Translations under genes and position numbers: made by a program
Shown: positions 1-14,968 of the stretch, piece by piece
How the letters are laid out: each line of letters opens with the position of its first letter
Position numbering within the stretch: position 1 is the stretch's first letter
Notes under the pieces: model-generated
Seen by the model: the letters and a program-made list of their open reading frames with translations, nothing else
What the model was told of the DNA's origin: nothing
The model's database searches: none
DNA from: a virus
Virus record (IMG/VR): IMGVR_UViG_3300018424_000345
Location: 1 to 20,266 of that record
Direction: 5' to 3' (one strand)
Length of the DNA stretch: 20,266 nt

Positions 1-712
1 CAATCACAAAGTACTGATTGGGTTTACCGTTGATAGTGATGTTACGATCCTGCACCAGACCCCAAGGACTGAGGCGGCTGGACATCTTGGTATCACCAGT
101 GATCTTGTACATACGGTTGATCAGATATGGAATATCGAAGAACCGTGTGTTCCACCCAGTAATAATATCAGGAGTATGCATCTCCCAGAACCGGACGAAC
201 TTCTGCAACAGATCGAACTCGTTGTCGCACTCAATGAAGAGTACGTCATCACGAGTCGGTGTGTAAGAGTCCAGACCCCAGACCCAGTACTGACCCTCCA
301 TAAGAAGGGCGATAGAGATGACCGGATGGTCTGCGGTTGCAGGTTCGGGAAAACCTTCAGAAGACTCGACCTCAATATCAATGTTCAGTACTTTAACCAG
401 TGACCGATCAAACTCAATCTGATTTGGGAATCGGTCAGTAATAAATTGTGCAACGTAGTTGGTGTTGCCGTAGATCTGTACGTTCGAGACGTGTTCGTAT
501 CTCTTGGTGAAGTCCCGTGCTTCGGACATAGAGTCGAACTCCATCTCCGTGACGGGTAGTCCATCAAGAGTAGTCCACCCCATACCCTTACCACCTACGT
601 AGAGTTTGGGACGAAATGGAATACGTTCCTTGACCGCTTCACCATTCCGGTATCCACGGTAGAGGATGTTGTTGCCGTAACGCACGGCACTCGTATAGAA
701 TTCTTTAATCAT
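1..712 (-). CDS. 43: DNA polymerase gp43, N-terminal part (runs off the left edge)
   Basis: This is the family B replicative DNA polymerase of T4-like phages. Only the first 237 codons lie in the window. The frame is open from ATG 712 to position 1. The start MIKEFY aligns with the T4 start MKEFY. Exonuclease motif Exo I is seen as D112-I-E114, by count the same positions as the catalytic T4 residues. Exo II is in TGWNTRFFDIPYLINR, residues 185-200, with D193. The polymerase domain is outside the window. There is no Shine-Dalgarno sequence before the ATG, and a consensus promoter places the predicted transcription start on the A of that ATG. The gene follows dam by 31 nt. In T4 this gene represses its own translation through a hairpin in its leader; a leaderless mRNA would not have one. 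Identification is very secure. Confidence 0.97.
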   Translation of the reverse strand, partial: MIKEFYTSAVRYGNNILYRGYRNGEAVKERIPFRPKLYVGGKGMGWTTLDGLPVTEMEFDSMSEARDFTKRYEHVSNVQIYGNTNYVAQFITDRFPNQIEFDRSLVKVLNIDIEVESSEGFPEPATADHPVISIALLMEGQYWVWGLDSYTPTRDDVLFIECDNEFDLLQKFVRFWEMHTPDIITGWNTRFFDIPYLINRMYKITGDTKMSSRLSPWGLVQDRNITINGKPNQYFVI

Positions 713-718
713 AGATGT

Positions 719-747
719 ATCATATCATACACTCAGTGTATTGTCAA
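719..747 (-). promoter_or_regulatory. Early sigma70-type promoter of gp43 with palindrome in the spacer
   Basis: On the minus strand TTGACA (747-742) is followed by a 17-nt spacer and TATGAT (724-719), with an extended -10 TGA. The six bases ACATCT separate the -10 box from ATG 712, so +1 is predicted on the start codon. The -35 box contains the TGA stop of dam (746-744). The spacer holds the perfect palindrome TACACTGAGTGTA (740-728). Confidence 0.85.
728..740. promoter_or_regulatory. 13-nt palindrome, operator candidate
   Basis: TACACTCAGTGTA reads as 6+1+6 with perfect dyad symmetry and lies wholly between the -35 and -10 boxes of the gp43 promoter. That is a typical place for a repressor to block RNA polymerase. 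In read-through RNA from upstream it could also form a short hairpin of about 5 bp with a 3-nt loop, 16 nt before the gp43 AUG. No candidate binding protein is identified. Confidence 0.5.
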
Positions 748-1628
748 CCGAAAAAATCTTCAAGGGTACTTGCACCTTGACTCTCATAGTTCCTTAGTAG
801 TAACTCCTTTCTATTGTGTTCGTCCTCACGATACTTCTGTCCGGAGTGCATCGTGTATGTAAGATCCCACTCTAACTGATCCCACCCAGTGTATGCATCC
901 CTCAGTGTCTCGTTAGAGTTGTAGGTAACCATCACCATAGAATCTGTTGAGTCAATTTGATCATGGAATCTTTTGTGACAGAACGAGTCGTGCATGTCAC
1001 CGTGATTACCATAGATGAAAGAGTTGATGTCATATGGTGGATCTGCAAAGATGAAAGTATTCTCATCTGCACCGTCACCTAGAAGATGTGAGTAGTCCTC
1101 GTTTGTGATTCTCCAGTTCCTCATGATGTGAGAGAACTTAGGTAGTTTGTCAATTAGTCTGTGATTGAACAAGTCCTTTACTGCGTCCTTACTAAAGGAT
1201 CCGGTAGACTCACCTAGACCAGAGAAACTGCATCTGTTCATGACGTAGAACATCCATGCAATCTCGAAAGGATCTTCTGCAGTGTTGAGACCCTCACGCA
1301 TCACATGGTAGTAGTCCAAGTGTGCCTGCAGAGAATCCTCCGCTTCAGATAGTTCTGTCTTTACACCGTGCAGTTTGTCTGCAAGTTTCTTACCGTCCTT
1401 CTGCAACTGCTTCCAGAAACAATACAGGTTGTAGTACTTGTCGTTTACCCACACCGGAATGTGTGGTCTCATCATAGAGAAATACAATGCACAACTACCA
1501 CCGCCGAGAAACATCTCACGGTACTCTTTTATTTCACGAGTCGGCATATTCTCTGCAGAAAACAAAAACTGTACTGCACGGGATTTACCGCCCGGATAAC
1601 GTAATGGGGTTTTTAGATCTTTATACAT
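744..1628 (-). CDS. dam: Dam-family DNA adenine methyltransferase
   Basis: This 294-aa protein resembles D12-class (Dam) N6-adenine methyltransferases, which methylate adenine, typically in GATC. The N-terminal TPLRYPGGKSRA (residues 8-19) and FLGGGS (40-45) form the S-adenosylmethionine site. FADPPYD (194-200) carries the catalytic DPPY. The start is ATG 1628, just ahead of the conserved PLRYPGGK; a longer open frame upstream has no support. There is no Shine-Dalgarno sequence. A perfect TTGACA-17-TATAAT promoter puts +1 on the A of this ATG, so the mRNA is predicted to be leaderless. The C-terminus, ASTLEDFFG, looks like a sliding-clamp-binding (PIP-like) peptide. The stop TGA lies inside the -35 box of the gp43 promoter. 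Target specificity cannot be read from the sequence. Confidence 0.92.
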   Translation of the reverse strand: MYKDLKTPLRYPGGKSRAVQFLFSAENMPTREIKEYREMFLGGGSCALYFSMMRPHIPVWVNDKYYNLYCFWKQLQKDGKKLADKLHGVKTELSEAEDSLQAHLDYYHVMREGLNTAEDPFEIAWMFYVMNRCSFSGLGESTGSFSKDAVKDLFNHRLIDKLPKFSHIMRNWRITNEDYSHLLGDGADENTFIFADPPYDINSFIYGNHGDMHDSFCHKRFHDQIDSTDSMVMVTYNSNETLRDAYTGWDQLEWDLTYTMHSGQKYREDEHNRKELLLRNYESQGASTLEDFFG

Positions 1629-1634
1629 GTGACC

Positions 1635-1663
1635 ATTATACCAAATGGAAATGGATTTGTCAA
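1635..1663 (-). promoter_or_regulatory. Perfect consensus early promoter of dam
   Basis: TTGACA (1663-1658), a 17-nt spacer ending TGG (extended -10), and TATAAT (1640-1635). Exactly six bases (GGTCAC) separate the -10 box from ATG 1628, predicting transcription from the A of the start codon. The -35 box contains the TGA stop (1662-1660) of the upstream gene. Confidence 0.9.
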
Positions 1664-2499
1664 TCCACGATATGAAACATTTTATGTCGAGTCCAAGGTT
1701 GATTGATCCACTGATCAGGATACCCATGGTGGTCTTGCGTGACGTTCAGTGACTTGGATATCACCTGAGTCGTAGGAACACGGACTGAACTCTGTGGATC
1801 CGGATCCGTATCGTTGAAAGGTATTTCAACCTGCTTACCAAAGTAGAGTGTGTTACACTCGTGCCATGGATGTACTACGGTATTCTTGAGGCCAAAAAAA
1901 TTGTAGTCCACAAGATATGAACTAGTATAGGTTCTGAACAAACGTTGCAGTGTGCAGTATGGGCCGCAGTTGATCGGAAACTTACCCTTATTACGAACAC
2001 CAAAAACCAGTAACTCCCACATCCACTTAGCACATGATTGTTCTAAGGAATACATCCCCATGAACAAACCTATGTTCACATAGAAAGGATTCTTTTCTTT
2101 GGTGTATTTAACTAGATCTCTTAGTGTCTCAACTTGGTCTGGTAATAGGTAAGTGTCATGCTCCATGACAAAGAATCTTTCTTCACCCGACTCGTTGTTA
2201 CCTGCAAATTTCATGAGATCCCAGTGAGAACACATACCCGCCTTTTCTGTTGGTGAGTGATCATCTGGATTACTACCATGTTGATCTGCCAACATCAAAG
2301 AGGTTTCCCAGTTGTACAGATCTCTGTGTGCTTCGTAAACCTCAGACTCAGGAGTTATTGCGTTATAGGTAGCAATCTCAGATATGATACCTTCTTCTAT
2401 TGCGGGTTTGAATGACGCTCTGGATATCTCTGCATATTCTTCTGATATCTCGTTACCCTTGATTACTATTTGAAATGCCTTCAAACGTTTATTCCCCAT
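1660..2499 (-). CDS. Glycosyltransferase-like protein
   Basis: This is a 279-aa protein from ATG 2499. The central segment ERFFVMEHDTYLLPDQ (about residues 107-122) has the hydrophobic-strand-plus-acidic pattern (EHD) found at the nucleotide-sugar/metal site of GT-A glycosyltransferases. It is preceded by a Cys-Ser-His segment and followed by a Trp-rich C-terminal half. The start overlaps the 3' end of the glycosyltransferase gene before it by 19 nt, so the two are probably translated together. The likely role is sugar transfer to phage DNA, a virion protein or a host surface glycan; the sequence does not say which. It is weaker than its neighbour because no clean DxD is present. There is no transmembrane segment. 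The stop TGA is used in the dam promoter. Confidence 0.5.
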   Translation of the reverse strand: MGNKRLKAFQIVIKGNEISEEYAEISRASFKPAIEEGIISEIATYNAITPESEVYEAHRDLYNWETSLMLADQHGSNPDDHSPTEKAGMCSHWDLMKFAGNNESGEERFFVMEHDTYLLPDQVETLRDLVKYTKEKNPFYVNIGLFMGMYSLEQSCAKWMWELLVFGVRNKGKFPINCGPYCTLQRLFRTYTSSYLVDYNFFGLKNTVVHPWHECNTLYFGKQVEIPFNDTDPDPQSSVRVPTTQVISKSLNVTQDHHGYPDQWINQPWTRHKMFHIVD

Positions 2500-4508: not shown

Positions 4509-4880
4509 TTACTTGTTCCCGATATTATACTTGGGACATAGATCCCAGTTCTGCTTATCCTTATATCCAATGATTTTAATCTGTCTCATAGGTGCACAAT
4601 CTAGTGACACTTCGGTATTCTGGATCTCAACGAGACCCCAGTCCTGTAGTAGAGTTGCGATTGTATTCCTACGTTGCACATCACCTTCTTCTAGGTTAGA
4701 TTTCTTGCCGTCTAACATGAACAGTTCTTTAAAATGTACGATGAAGTACCGTCCCTGTTTGTGTAAGATGTGACACGATTGATACAATTTATTGTCACGC
4801 TTTGACGCAATACCAATTCGAGTTAGAGTTTCTTTGACCTTTAGGAAATCATCCGGTTCGGACAAAGTTACCTCCAACAT
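4509..4880 (-). CDS. regA: RegA translational repressor
   Basis: RegA binds the ribosome-binding region of many phage early mRNAs and blocks their translation. The N-terminal part PDDFLKVKETLTRIGIASK, then LYQSCHILHKQGRYFIVHFKE and LLQDWGLVEI, match T4 RegA closely. I start it at ATG 4880 because MLEVTLSEPDDFLKV aligns with the T4 start MIEITLKKPEDFLKV, giving 123 aa against 122 in T4. A longer frame from GTG 4919 inside gp62 adds 13 residues without family support. The gene lies directly after gp62 and before the cupin-like gene, matching the T4 order 44-62-regA-43 apart from the inserted genes. The ribosome binding site before ATG 4880 is weak. Confidence 0.95.
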   Translation of the reverse strand: MLEVTLSEPDDFLKVKETLTRIGIASKRDNKLYQSCHILHKQGRYFIVHFKELFMLDGKKSNLEEGDVQRRNTIATLLQDWGLVEIQNTEVSLDCAPMRQIKIIGYKDKQNWDLCPKYNIGNK

Positions 4881-4905
4881 CAACCCAGAGTTCCATTCAA
4901 CTAAT

Positions 4906-5304
4906 TTATTTTCTTCCACCTTTCTGCACCTTATTCTTTATCTTGTTTAGAGAATCGGGTGAGAGTAGTGGTAAAACTTGACGTGCTTTGTCATTGCTAT
5001 ATCCATAATACTCTTTCACCGCCTCAATATCATTTAACGTTTCGGGTTTAACCCACTTAGGGAAACGCTTCCGTTTCCTTACTATATTTAGTAAAAAATG
5101 ATATTGTAACTTACTGTCTACATCCCAGTAGCGGTTCATTTCATTAGCTAGCAATACAGTATCATGTGAATAGGACAATCCACGATTCACCATATAAGAG
5201 TTATAGTGAGTCTCGTTCTCCACATCCATGATGTCTCGTTTACTATAGTTAATACTGTTTAGGAATTCAAAAGGCCCTAGTTTTGTTCCGTTCGACCCAT
5301 CCAT
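4906..5304 (-). CDS. 62: Clamp loader small subunit gp62
   Basis: gp62 forms, with gp44, the clamp loader that places the gp45 ring on DNA. The family is fast-evolving, but the N-terminal FEFLNSINYSKRDIM, then NEMNRYWDVDSKLQYHFLL, then RKRKRFPKWVKPE and the position just before regA support it. The start is uncertain. ATG 5304 has AGGA (5316-5313) 8 nt upstream and gives 132 aa. ATG 5322 or 5310 in the same frame would add 6 or 2 residues; 5322 lies only 2 nt beyond the start site predicted from the promoter. The 5' end overlaps the end of the sulfotransferase gene. It is shorter than T4 gp62 (187 aa). Confidence 0.85.
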   Translation of the reverse strand: MDGSNGTKLGPFEFLNSINYSKRDIMDVENETHYNSYMVNRGLSYSHDTVLLANEMNRYWDVDSKLQYHFLLNIVRKRKRFPKWVKPETLNDIEAVKEYYGYSNDKARQVLPLLSPDSLNKIKNKVQKGGRK

Positions 5305-6019
5305 AATCATAGTCCTGTTCATAAATTTTCATTATACGCTTTCTTTGTACGGTTGTCAAATTACTAACACCACCGTAGTATAAACCAGACGTACTGTTAG
5401 TATGTATTTGATGAAGTTTTTTACTCGTGCGAGTTGCCTTTTCCAACCATTTCAACATCGCATCAAAGTCTGACATCGCCCAGATATCTGTGTATTGACT
5501 TCGGTTTCCAAGAAAATGTGATTGCGGAAAGAAGTGAGCATTGATTAAACCACCTGATCTAACCTCTGTTATCAAGTCATCCATCTTGTCAGGTATCTCA
5601 TCTAGTTCTGACAAACTCATGTAGAGTTTTCCTTTCTGATCTAGATCTAGATGGGTATTTGACTCCAGAAATGAAGACTCTTTTACCCATTGCAGTTTTA
5701 GATACTCTGCAGCAGACAAAAATCGTTCAATCGGATCACGTACAACAGTAACACGACTCGTGTTAACTCTCCACGGCAATAGCGTGGACTCTCCCTTTTC
5801 TTTAATCTCTTTCAGTCTATGTCCTTTGGTTCCACAGTTTGCAGCAAACTCAGGATCATCTTCCACACTGATTTTGTAGACATGCCACAGTGCCCATTTC
5901 AGTGTCGTGATTCCATTCTTGGGACACAGACGAATGTCTATGTTCTGTGGGAAATACAATACGTTGTCTTGGGGTGTCATAGTTCCACGCAATTTGTTGT
6001 GGATGATGTGACGCATCAT
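5267..6019 (-). CDS. Sulfotransferase family protein
   Basis: About 250 aa. CPKNGITTLKW (residues 32-42 from ATG 6019) matches the 5' PAPS-binding loop of carbohydrate sulfotransferases (usually PKsGtTtl). TVVRDPIERFLSA (from residue 91) matches the 3'-phosphate loop (vRdP..Rf.S). HFFPQSHFLG further on is typical of the Sulfotransfer_2 group. The enzyme would transfer sulfate from PAPS to a glycan, lipid or protein. The start is ambiguous: ATG 6019 or 6016, or TTG 6046, which overlaps the dCMP deaminase stop as TTGA; no version has a good ribosome binding site. The 3' end overlaps gp62 and contains its promoter. This is an uncommon accessory gene inside a replisome cluster. Confidence 0.75.
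   Translation of the reverse strand: MMRHIIHNKLRGTMTPQDNVLYFPQNIDIRLCPKNGITTLKWALWHVYKISVEDDPEFAANCGTKGHRLKEIKEKGESTLLPWRVNTSRVTVVRDPIERFLSAAEYLKLQWVKESSFLESNTHLDLDQKGKLYMSLSELDEIPDKMDDLITEVRSGGLINAHFFPQSHFLGNRSQYTDIWAMSDFDAMLKWLEKATRTSKKLHQIHTNSTSGLYYGGVSNLTTVQRKRIMKIYEQDYDYGWVERNKTRAF
5331..5359 (-). promoter_or_regulatory. Perfect consensus early promoter of gp62-regA
   Basis: TTGACA (5359-5354), a 17-nt spacer and TATAAT (5336-5331), located inside the 3' end of the sulfotransferase gene. Predicted +1 is near 5324, giving a leader of about 20 nt to ATG 5304, or only 2 nt to ATG 5322. No extended -10 here. Confidence 0.85.
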
Positions 6020-6042
6020 ATTTTCTGTTTCACGTAATTCTT

Positions 6043-6474
6043 TCAAAGGCGGTCAACCTGTATTTTGCATTTATTTAAAAACTCTAATCCGCCATTGTCT
6101 TTGGGGTAATCGTCCTTATATACCACTCGACTAATACCGGATTGGTAAATTAATTTGGCACAATCCATACAGGGTGCCATAGTAGTATATAGTGTAGATC
6201 CTTCGCAAGATTCTGTACTACGTGCAACTTTTGCGATAGCATTGGTTTCTGCATGAAGAACCTCTTTCTTGGTCACCAATTCTGTAAGACCAAGTTCGTG
6301 TGCCCTTACTTGAAACTCGCACTCATTGTCCCAACCCGTTGGCATACCGTTGTAACCAATCGACTGAATGCGATTGTCTTTAACGATAACACAACCTACG
6401 TGTGCACGTCTTGCGGAAGACAAATTGGCATATACTTCTGCCGCTTCCATATGTGCGGTATCCCATTTATTCAT
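6043..6474 (-). CDS. cd: dCMP deaminase (ComE/Cd family)
   Basis: A 143-aa zinc-dependent cytidine/deoxycytidylate deaminase. HAETNAIAK (H74, E76) is the zinc ligand and catalytic glutamate, and MAPCMDCAKLI (C102, C105) gives the other two zinc ligands. It converts dCMP to dUMP for dTTP synthesis and so matches phage precursor supply. The start is ATG 6474, with GAGGA (6485-6481) 6 nt upstream; the GTG codon before it is unlikely. It is shorter than the T4 enzyme (193 aa). It overlaps the 3' end of the psiE gene by 8 nt, and its own stop is joined to a TTG of the sulfotransferase frame. Confidence 0.93.
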   Translation of the reverse strand: MNKWDTAHMEAAEVYANLSSARRAHVGCVIVKDNRIQSIGYNGMPTGWDNECEFQVRAHELGLTELVTKKEVLHAETNAIAKVARSTESCEGSTLYTTMAPCMDCAKLIYQSGISRVVYKDDYPKDNGGLEFLNKCKIQVDRL

Positions 6475-11858: not shown

Positions 11859-11867
11859 ATTTCACCT

Positions 11868-11897
11868 ATAATATCACAGTTCACGCCAATTGTCAAG
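11868..11897 (-). promoter_or_regulatory. Early promoter of the 66-aa gene and gp46
   Basis: TTGACA (11897-11892), an 18-nt spacer ending TGA (extended -10) and TATTAT (11873-11868). The -35 box lies within the last codons of the Mom-like gene. Predicted +1 (about 11861) is 3 nt before ATG 11858, so the RNA would be almost leaderless. Confidence 0.75.
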
Positions 11898-14500: not shown

Positions 14501-14915
14501 CTATTTTCTGCCTCAATTTAGAGGTAGAGAATCCATGATCCCTTTTATTATAGTAGATCTCAATTCCTTTTAACTGACACTGATTTTTTCCTGTAAACTC
14601 TAGTGCACGATACTCCTCACCAATGATCCTCATGTCGATAGGATAGGTATCGAGAATATCTAACAGTTCGTGTTCGTACTCATACGGTACGATTTCGTCT
14701 ACATACTTTACTGCACTTAGTTGGATGTATCTTTCGGTTAGACCCTGCACAGGTTTGTTCTTCTCTAGTCGGTCTAGAGAGGGATCTACCTGTAGACCAC
14801 AGATCAAATAGTCGCAGACAGTCTTTGCCTCACGCAACATAGAGATGTGTCCTGCATGTAGTAAATCAAATGCAGATGCAGTAAATCCAACTTTTTTTCT
14901 TTTTTCGCTTGACAT
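14484..14915 (-). CDS. Cytidylyltransferase-like nucleotidyltransferase
   Basis: A 143-aa protein. FTASAFDLLHAGHISMLREA has the HxGH motif (H20-A-G-H23), and RDHGFSTSKLRQKI near the C-terminus matches the second signature (usually R.eGiSTt.i...i) of the glycerol-3-phosphate cytidylyltransferase (TagD-like) family. It would join CTP to a phosphorylated alcohol or sugar, making a CDP-activated precursor for a surface polymer or lipid. ATG 14915 follows an AT-rich 53-nt gap with TATTAT but no good -35. The ribosome binding site is weak. Its 3' end carries the gp55 promoter. The exact substrate cannot be read from the sequence. Confidence 0.85.
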   Translation of the reverse strand: MSSEKRKKVGFTASAFDLLHAGHISMLREAKTVCDYLICGLQVDPSLDRLEKNKPVQGLTERYIQLSAVKYVDEIVPYEYEHELLDILDTYPIDMRIIGEEYRALEFTGKNQCQLKGIEIYYNKRDHGFSTSKLRQKIVDKGH

Positions 14916-14968
14916 AATTAAAAATCCGTGATATAATAAGCTTGCCGTCTGGGGAAAAGAATATATAC

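Follow-up and report, generated by a model that had tools for sequence, protein, structure and literature searches.

Several described systems start translation at, or close to, the 5' end of the mRNA. TA-led leaderless genes are known in bacteria (Zheng et al. 2011, PMC3160421), as are the -10-motif genes of Deinococcus-Thermus (PMC12340547), and leaderless mRNAs in E. coli need an AUG start codon (review PMC9031893). The classical phage example is lambda cI, transcribed from a sigma70 promoter whose +1 falls on the AUG (PMC3160421, PMC9031893). One paper remarks that leaderless transcripts are common in phages (PMC5312081), which means that the idea as such has precedent. In T4, gene 43 is transcribed early in infection and its mRNA carries a leader hairpin about 40 nt upstream and a sequence overlapping the ribosome-binding site, both bound by gp43 (PMC3014915). 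T4 RegA sites overlap the AUG or sit just 5' of it, and have no reliable sequence signature (PMC3014915). No report of leaderless replication genes, or of a leaderless replication module, in T4-like phages was found in open-access papers, most subscription journals being outside the search. Conserved leaderless use for the T4-like replication module appears to be undescribed in the papers searched, and the breadth and gene specificity reported below are unusual.

The window analyzed here is an IMG/VR fragment of 20,266 bases from a T4-like phage, for which the closest isolate record is Phage C48C1 (Kyanoviridae). Nearly all recognized genes lie on the minus strand; they include gp43, dam, regA, gp62, gp44, gp45 and gp55, an SbcC/SbcD-like nuclease and a UvsW-like helicase. 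A sulfotransferase-like ORF (PF03567, E=5.5e-8) lies upstream of gp62, between gp62 and the gp44 region. A search of bacterial genomes for the host matched two environmental MAG contigs (Sphingobacteriales and Flavobacteriaceae), which are probably binned phage. TTGACA/TATAAT promoters together with genes led by a Shine-Dalgarno (SD) sequence appear unlike Bacteroidetes signals.

The sequence-only reading had proposed that gp43 and dam are made from leaderless mRNAs, on the grounds that each has a consensus promoter exactly six bases before the ATG, lacks an SD sequence and has a start fixed by family alignment. All three observations held. The promoters read TTGACA-17-TATGAT-ACATCT-ATG at gp43 and TTGACA-17-TATAAT-GGTCAC-ATG at dam (Table 1). 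No SD match was present at either gene; anti-SD duplex energies were +0.6 kcal/mol for gp43 (calculated on an identical contig) and -2.8 kcal/mol for dam, compared with about -5 to -7 kcal/mol for leadered genes. M1 and the FYT motif of gp43 were invariant in the family alignment, and (M)xKDLKTPLRYPGGKSRA was found throughout the dam alignment. An in-frame ATG at 1727, considered as an alternative dam start, sits inside the upstream gene, and a wrong start was ruled out by the family alignment.

Table 1. Positions of genes, promoter elements and other features in the window.
Feature	Position	Strand	Basis or remark
gp43 DNA polymerase, N-terminal 236 aa; remainder lies beyond the window	5..712	-	PHROG 262 E=8e-64; A1 alignment
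gp43 ATG; predicted +1 = A at 712	712..710	-	sigma70 geometry and -1 pyrimidine pattern
gp43 6-nt discriminator ACATCT	718..713	-	sequence
gp43 promoter -10 TATGAT, TGn just before	724..719	-	sequence
gp43 promoter spacer palindrome	741..720	-	
gp43 promoter -35 TTGACA	747..742	-	contains dam TGA stop 746..744 (ORF 744..1727)
dam, D12-class adenine methyltransferase, 294 aa	744..1628	-	PF02086 E=3.5e-25; PHROG 56 E=1.7e-65
dam ATG; predicted +1 = A at 1628	1628..1626	-	
dam 6-nt discriminator GGTCAC	1634..1629	-	sequence
dam promoter -10 TATAAT, TGn just before	1640..1635	-	sequence
dam promoter -35 TTGACA	1663..1658	-	contains TGA stop 1662..1660 of ORF 1660-2499
Upstream ORF of dam	1660-2499	-	TGA stop = 1662..1660
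regA	4509-4919		
Sulfotransferase-like ORF	5267..6046	-	PF03567
gp62 promoter and start region	5359..5297	-	
66-aa ORF with promoter	11896..11859	-	no PHROG or Pfam match
Promoter directed against the genes	14909..14937	+	12/12, TGn

The window contained 10 promoters with at least 11/12 consensus matches and a 17-nt spacer, and two of these have an ATG at 6 nt. In 100 dinucleotide shuffles the mean number of such promoters was 0.18 (maximum 1) and none had an ATG at 6 nt, which bears out the earlier view that the shared six-base spacing is not due to chance. At a loose threshold of 9/12 there was no enrichment in the window (55 vs 49), and it is therefore the near-consensus promoters that carry the argument. 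Strong promoters in gene orientation at gp55 (24 nt), gp45 (35 nt) and gp44 are followed by ordinary leaders and SD sequences. Closer spacings were seen at gp62 (8 nt) and at a 66-aa ORF, whose promoter stands 9 nt from the ATG and whose transcript may have a leader of 2-3 nt. A perfect match with TGn on the plus strand is directed against the genes and may give an antisense transcript.

With TA-led genes, gp43 and dam share a -10-like TANNNT whose first T lies about 12 bp before the start codon (12 bp in each of the two), the absence of an SD, an AUG start, and a start codon at the transcription start, which is predicted here. Unlike the bacterial TA-led genes, they belong to a lytic T4-like phage, have a full TTGACA -35 at 17 nt, and are part of a set of mainly replication genes in a genome whose other early genes are leadered. 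The likeness to lambda cI lies in the phage gene, the sigma70 promoter and the predicted +1 at the AUG; however, cI is one gene only, encoding the repressor of a temperate phage, whereas the present set comprises several replication enzymes in a phage of lytic type, and the arrangement is conserved across lineages.

About 245 phage loci were compared, the relatives having been gathered by dam, primase and a gp43 alignment and dereplicated on the 45 bases upstream of each start. The distance from the -10 box to the ATG was bimodal, with a narrow spike at 6-7 nt and, farther out, a broad hump spanning 20-40 nt. When 386 distinct strong promoters were taken regardless of gene, ATG-initiated ORFs began at a distance of 6 nt in 62 cases and of 7 nt in 36, whereas each position from 3 to 5 and from 11 to 19 nt held only 0-3. 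Most of a minor peak at 9 nt was coding sequence inside an epimerase gene. The position was gene-specific. Among distinct upstream regions with a near-consensus promoter, it stood at 6-7 nt in 51/53 for primase, 18/25 for dam and 40/96 for gp43, whereas gp44, gp45, gp55 and uvsX orthologues had promoters at 20-50 nt only. No near-consensus promoter was found for dnaB or regA orthologues in the fetched relatives. Within one gene, the spacers of the 6-7 nt promoters had a mean identity of 0.36-0.45 and the hexamers 0.89-0.96; the position is thus maintained while the surrounding DNA turns over, in the comparison with related phages that the sequence-only reading had put forward as a check. Two loci added later for a different purpose fitted the pattern, having primase at 7 nt with gp43 leadered at 25 nt and GAGGAG (L251), and gp43 at 6 nt (L252). 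Among isolates, a promoter at 6-7 nt was absent from three cyanophages, and gp43 of Melnitz has a leader with an SD-like AAGGA.

A third case comes from the same virus. A contig identical over gp43 (L001, L165), taken as the same virus, extends to the primase gene, which is preceded by TTGACA-18-TATAAT-GAATAC-ATG, again with 6 nt. In the complete phage C48C1, where gp43, dam and primase follow one another, the distances are 7, 6 and 6 nt, while most other early promoters lie 24-43 nt from the ATG. The spacer of the gp43 promoter in the window contains a perfect palindrome (ATACACT-G-AGTGTAT), and near-identical palindromes occur in the primase promoter spacers of L091, L093, L101, L108, L111, L112, L118, L120, L125 and L163. 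Palindromes were present in 13/51 primase promoter spacers vs 1.6 expected. This palindrome resembles a shared operator for a putative repressor.

The genes with promoters at 6-7 nt (leaderless-type) also differed from leadered genes around the start codon. An SD of -4 kcal/mol or stronger was found in 4/109 leaderless-type and 77/107 leadered genes, and the contrast was significant within gp43 alone (Mann-Whitney p = 4e-11). All 109 of the 109 leaderless-type genes counted by orthologue start with ATG, but that count used a rule preferring ATG, and we rely on the unbiased count made without start choice: 88 ATG and 6 GTG or TTG at 6-7 nt, 157 and 57 at 20-40 nt (p = 2e-5). Because leaderless mRNAs in E. 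coli need an AUG, the codon bias was predicted in advance and the count might have contradicted it. Over their first 45 nt, leaderless-type ORFs were no less structured than leadered ones (gp43 mean -5.4 vs -4.4 kcal/mol), and weak 5' structure was dropped as support for leaderlessness.

The base at -1 was a pyrimidine (C or T) in 104/109 leaderless-type genes. Transcription usually starts with a pyrimidine at -1 and a purine at +1. The alternative with the most left in its favor, which we nevertheless regard as improbable, is an ultra-short leader: transcription would begin 1-3 nt before the ATG, or from more than one position, with SD-independent translation. The distance is 7 rather than 6 nt in about half of the cases, some relatives are at 8-10 nt, where leaders would be 1-3 nt, and gp43 of HTVC008M has a promoter at 12 nt and no SD. 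Against this, the seventh base of the 7-nt cases was a pyrimidine in 48/49, so that in both spacing classes the predicted +1 falls on the A of the ATG, and there was no comparable pile-up at 8 nt.

Compaction is a less probable account. Promoters would have been squeezed into intergenic gaps of about 31 nt, leaderlessness would be a by-product, and most protein would come from polycistronic readthrough through coupling or reinitiation after the upstream stop. The short gaps fit, as does the upstream TGA, which lies inside the -35 (T[TGA]CA) of gp43 and dam in the window and of 62/109 leaderless-type cases. Since the genes are packed co-directionally, gp43 and dam probably also occur internally on readthrough mRNAs. 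However, compaction leaves unexplained the sharp spike at 6-7 nt and the near-empty positions at 3-5 and 11-19 nt, and the stop in the -35 also accompanies leadered promoters of the same gene families (16 cases). Reinitiation is moreover poor 31 nt from a stop without an SD. A third account, in which translation really begins farther downstream or the hexamers arose by chance, is very improbable. For the class formed by gp43, dam and primase it is refuted by the shuffles, the family-fixed starts and the conservation despite spacer turnover, even though some 6-9 nt matches are such artefacts (L020/L025/L034, with an SD and a downstream ATG, and the 9-nt epimerase family).

Leaderless initiation from host sigma70 promoters is the best explanation for gp43, dam and primase, and we hold it with considerable confidence on sequence grounds. 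The proposal of leaderless gp43 and dam mRNAs is strongly supported by the kept 6-7 nt spacing, the loss of the SD, the ATG-only starts, the pyrimidine at -1 and the extension to primase. In contrast to the mRNAs of neighboring early genes, theirs very probably have the start codon as their 5' end. Each gene would be driven by its own near-consensus host sigma70 early promoter, from which host RNA polymerase would make the message immediately after infection. Transcription is predicted to start at the A of the start codon, giving an mRNA with no leader and no SD site; translation would then proceed by recognition of the 5'-terminal AUG, 70S- or IF2-dependent as for known leaderless mRNAs.

In a gp43 tree of 106 proteins, the leaderless or leadered label changed 11-13 times, and at least 9-10 of these changes were forced by well-supported branches. 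In independent pairs the SD was lost in the leaderless partner in about 5.5/8, and the reverse almost never occurred; the median p of the sign test was 0.06, with a small sample of related sequences. Lineages would thus switch between a promoter at 6-7 nt with no SD and an ATG, and a promoter at 23-48 nt, usually with an SD, and an ATG or TTG. A leaderless state that is under selection and interchangeable is the best explanation for this pattern.

IMG/VR was scanned for the exact pattern TTGACA-17-TATAAT-6-ATG, with a 12-base spacing as control; the result is a contrast and not a frequency. Among the matches listed, the ATG opened an ORF of at least 60 codons in 85/132 at 6 nt vs 27/118 at 12 nt (p = 4e-11), and 3/85 of the 6-nt ORFs had an SD. 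Genes so placed, among the same matches, include a gp44-like clamp loader, primase, 5' nuclease, UvsY, dCMP deaminase, DNA ligase and a UvsW-like helicase. In the cultured SAR11 (Pelagibacter) phage HTVC008M, endonuclease V has TTGCCA-17-TATAAT-GTAAGT-ATG at its annotated start, the ATG at 76476 (L519, 76441-76478), which makes it a candidate leaderless gene in a culturable system.

Some promoters close to an ATG are followed by a second start. At gp62 in the window, the promoter lies 8 nt before ATGAACAGGACTATGATTATG, with a 5'-proximal AUG and then an internal AGGA before the third in-frame ATG; L179 is similarly arranged, and gp62 may have dual starts. In L020, L025, L032 and L034, promoters stand 6 nt before ATGTTAAATAAAAAAGGAGAAAAAATG-type sequences, in which a 5'-terminal AUG mini-start is followed by a strong SD and a second in-frame ATG. 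E. coli mRNAs that combine an SD with a 5'-terminal AUG (Beck et al. 2016, cited in PMC9031893) resemble gp62, L179 and L020/L025/L034; gp43, dam and primase differ from them in having no internal SD start.

Escape from RegA had been suggested as a consequence of leaderlessness. Some of a RegA site would survive in a leaderless mRNA, given that the T4 sites can extend over the AUG. A clearer consequence would be the loss of the T4-type gp43 RNA operator. The gene is orthologous to T4 gene 43, but the transcript predicted from its promoter has neither leader nor ribosome-binding site, and a leaderless gp43 mRNA cannot carry that operator. More tentatively, marine T4-like phages may keep a distinct translational class, in which replication and nucleotide-metabolism enzymes are made from leaderless early mRNAs that are translated selectively or timed apart from SD-led genes, and in which recurrent gain and loss of that state serves to transfer genes into or out of the class. 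Its members, on this possible reading, would be polymerase, Dam and primase and, in other lineages, UvsY, clamp loader, 5' nuclease, ligase and dCMP deaminase.

SD-based start calling, and models of RegA and gp43 control derived from T4, should be checked before they are applied to these marine phages. The genes described here form a natural set of conserved candidate leaderless genes in lytic phages, one of them in a cultured SAR11 phage. A central replication enzyme is predicted to be made from a leaderless mRNA, although its T4 counterpart is the textbook case of leader-based translational autoregulation.
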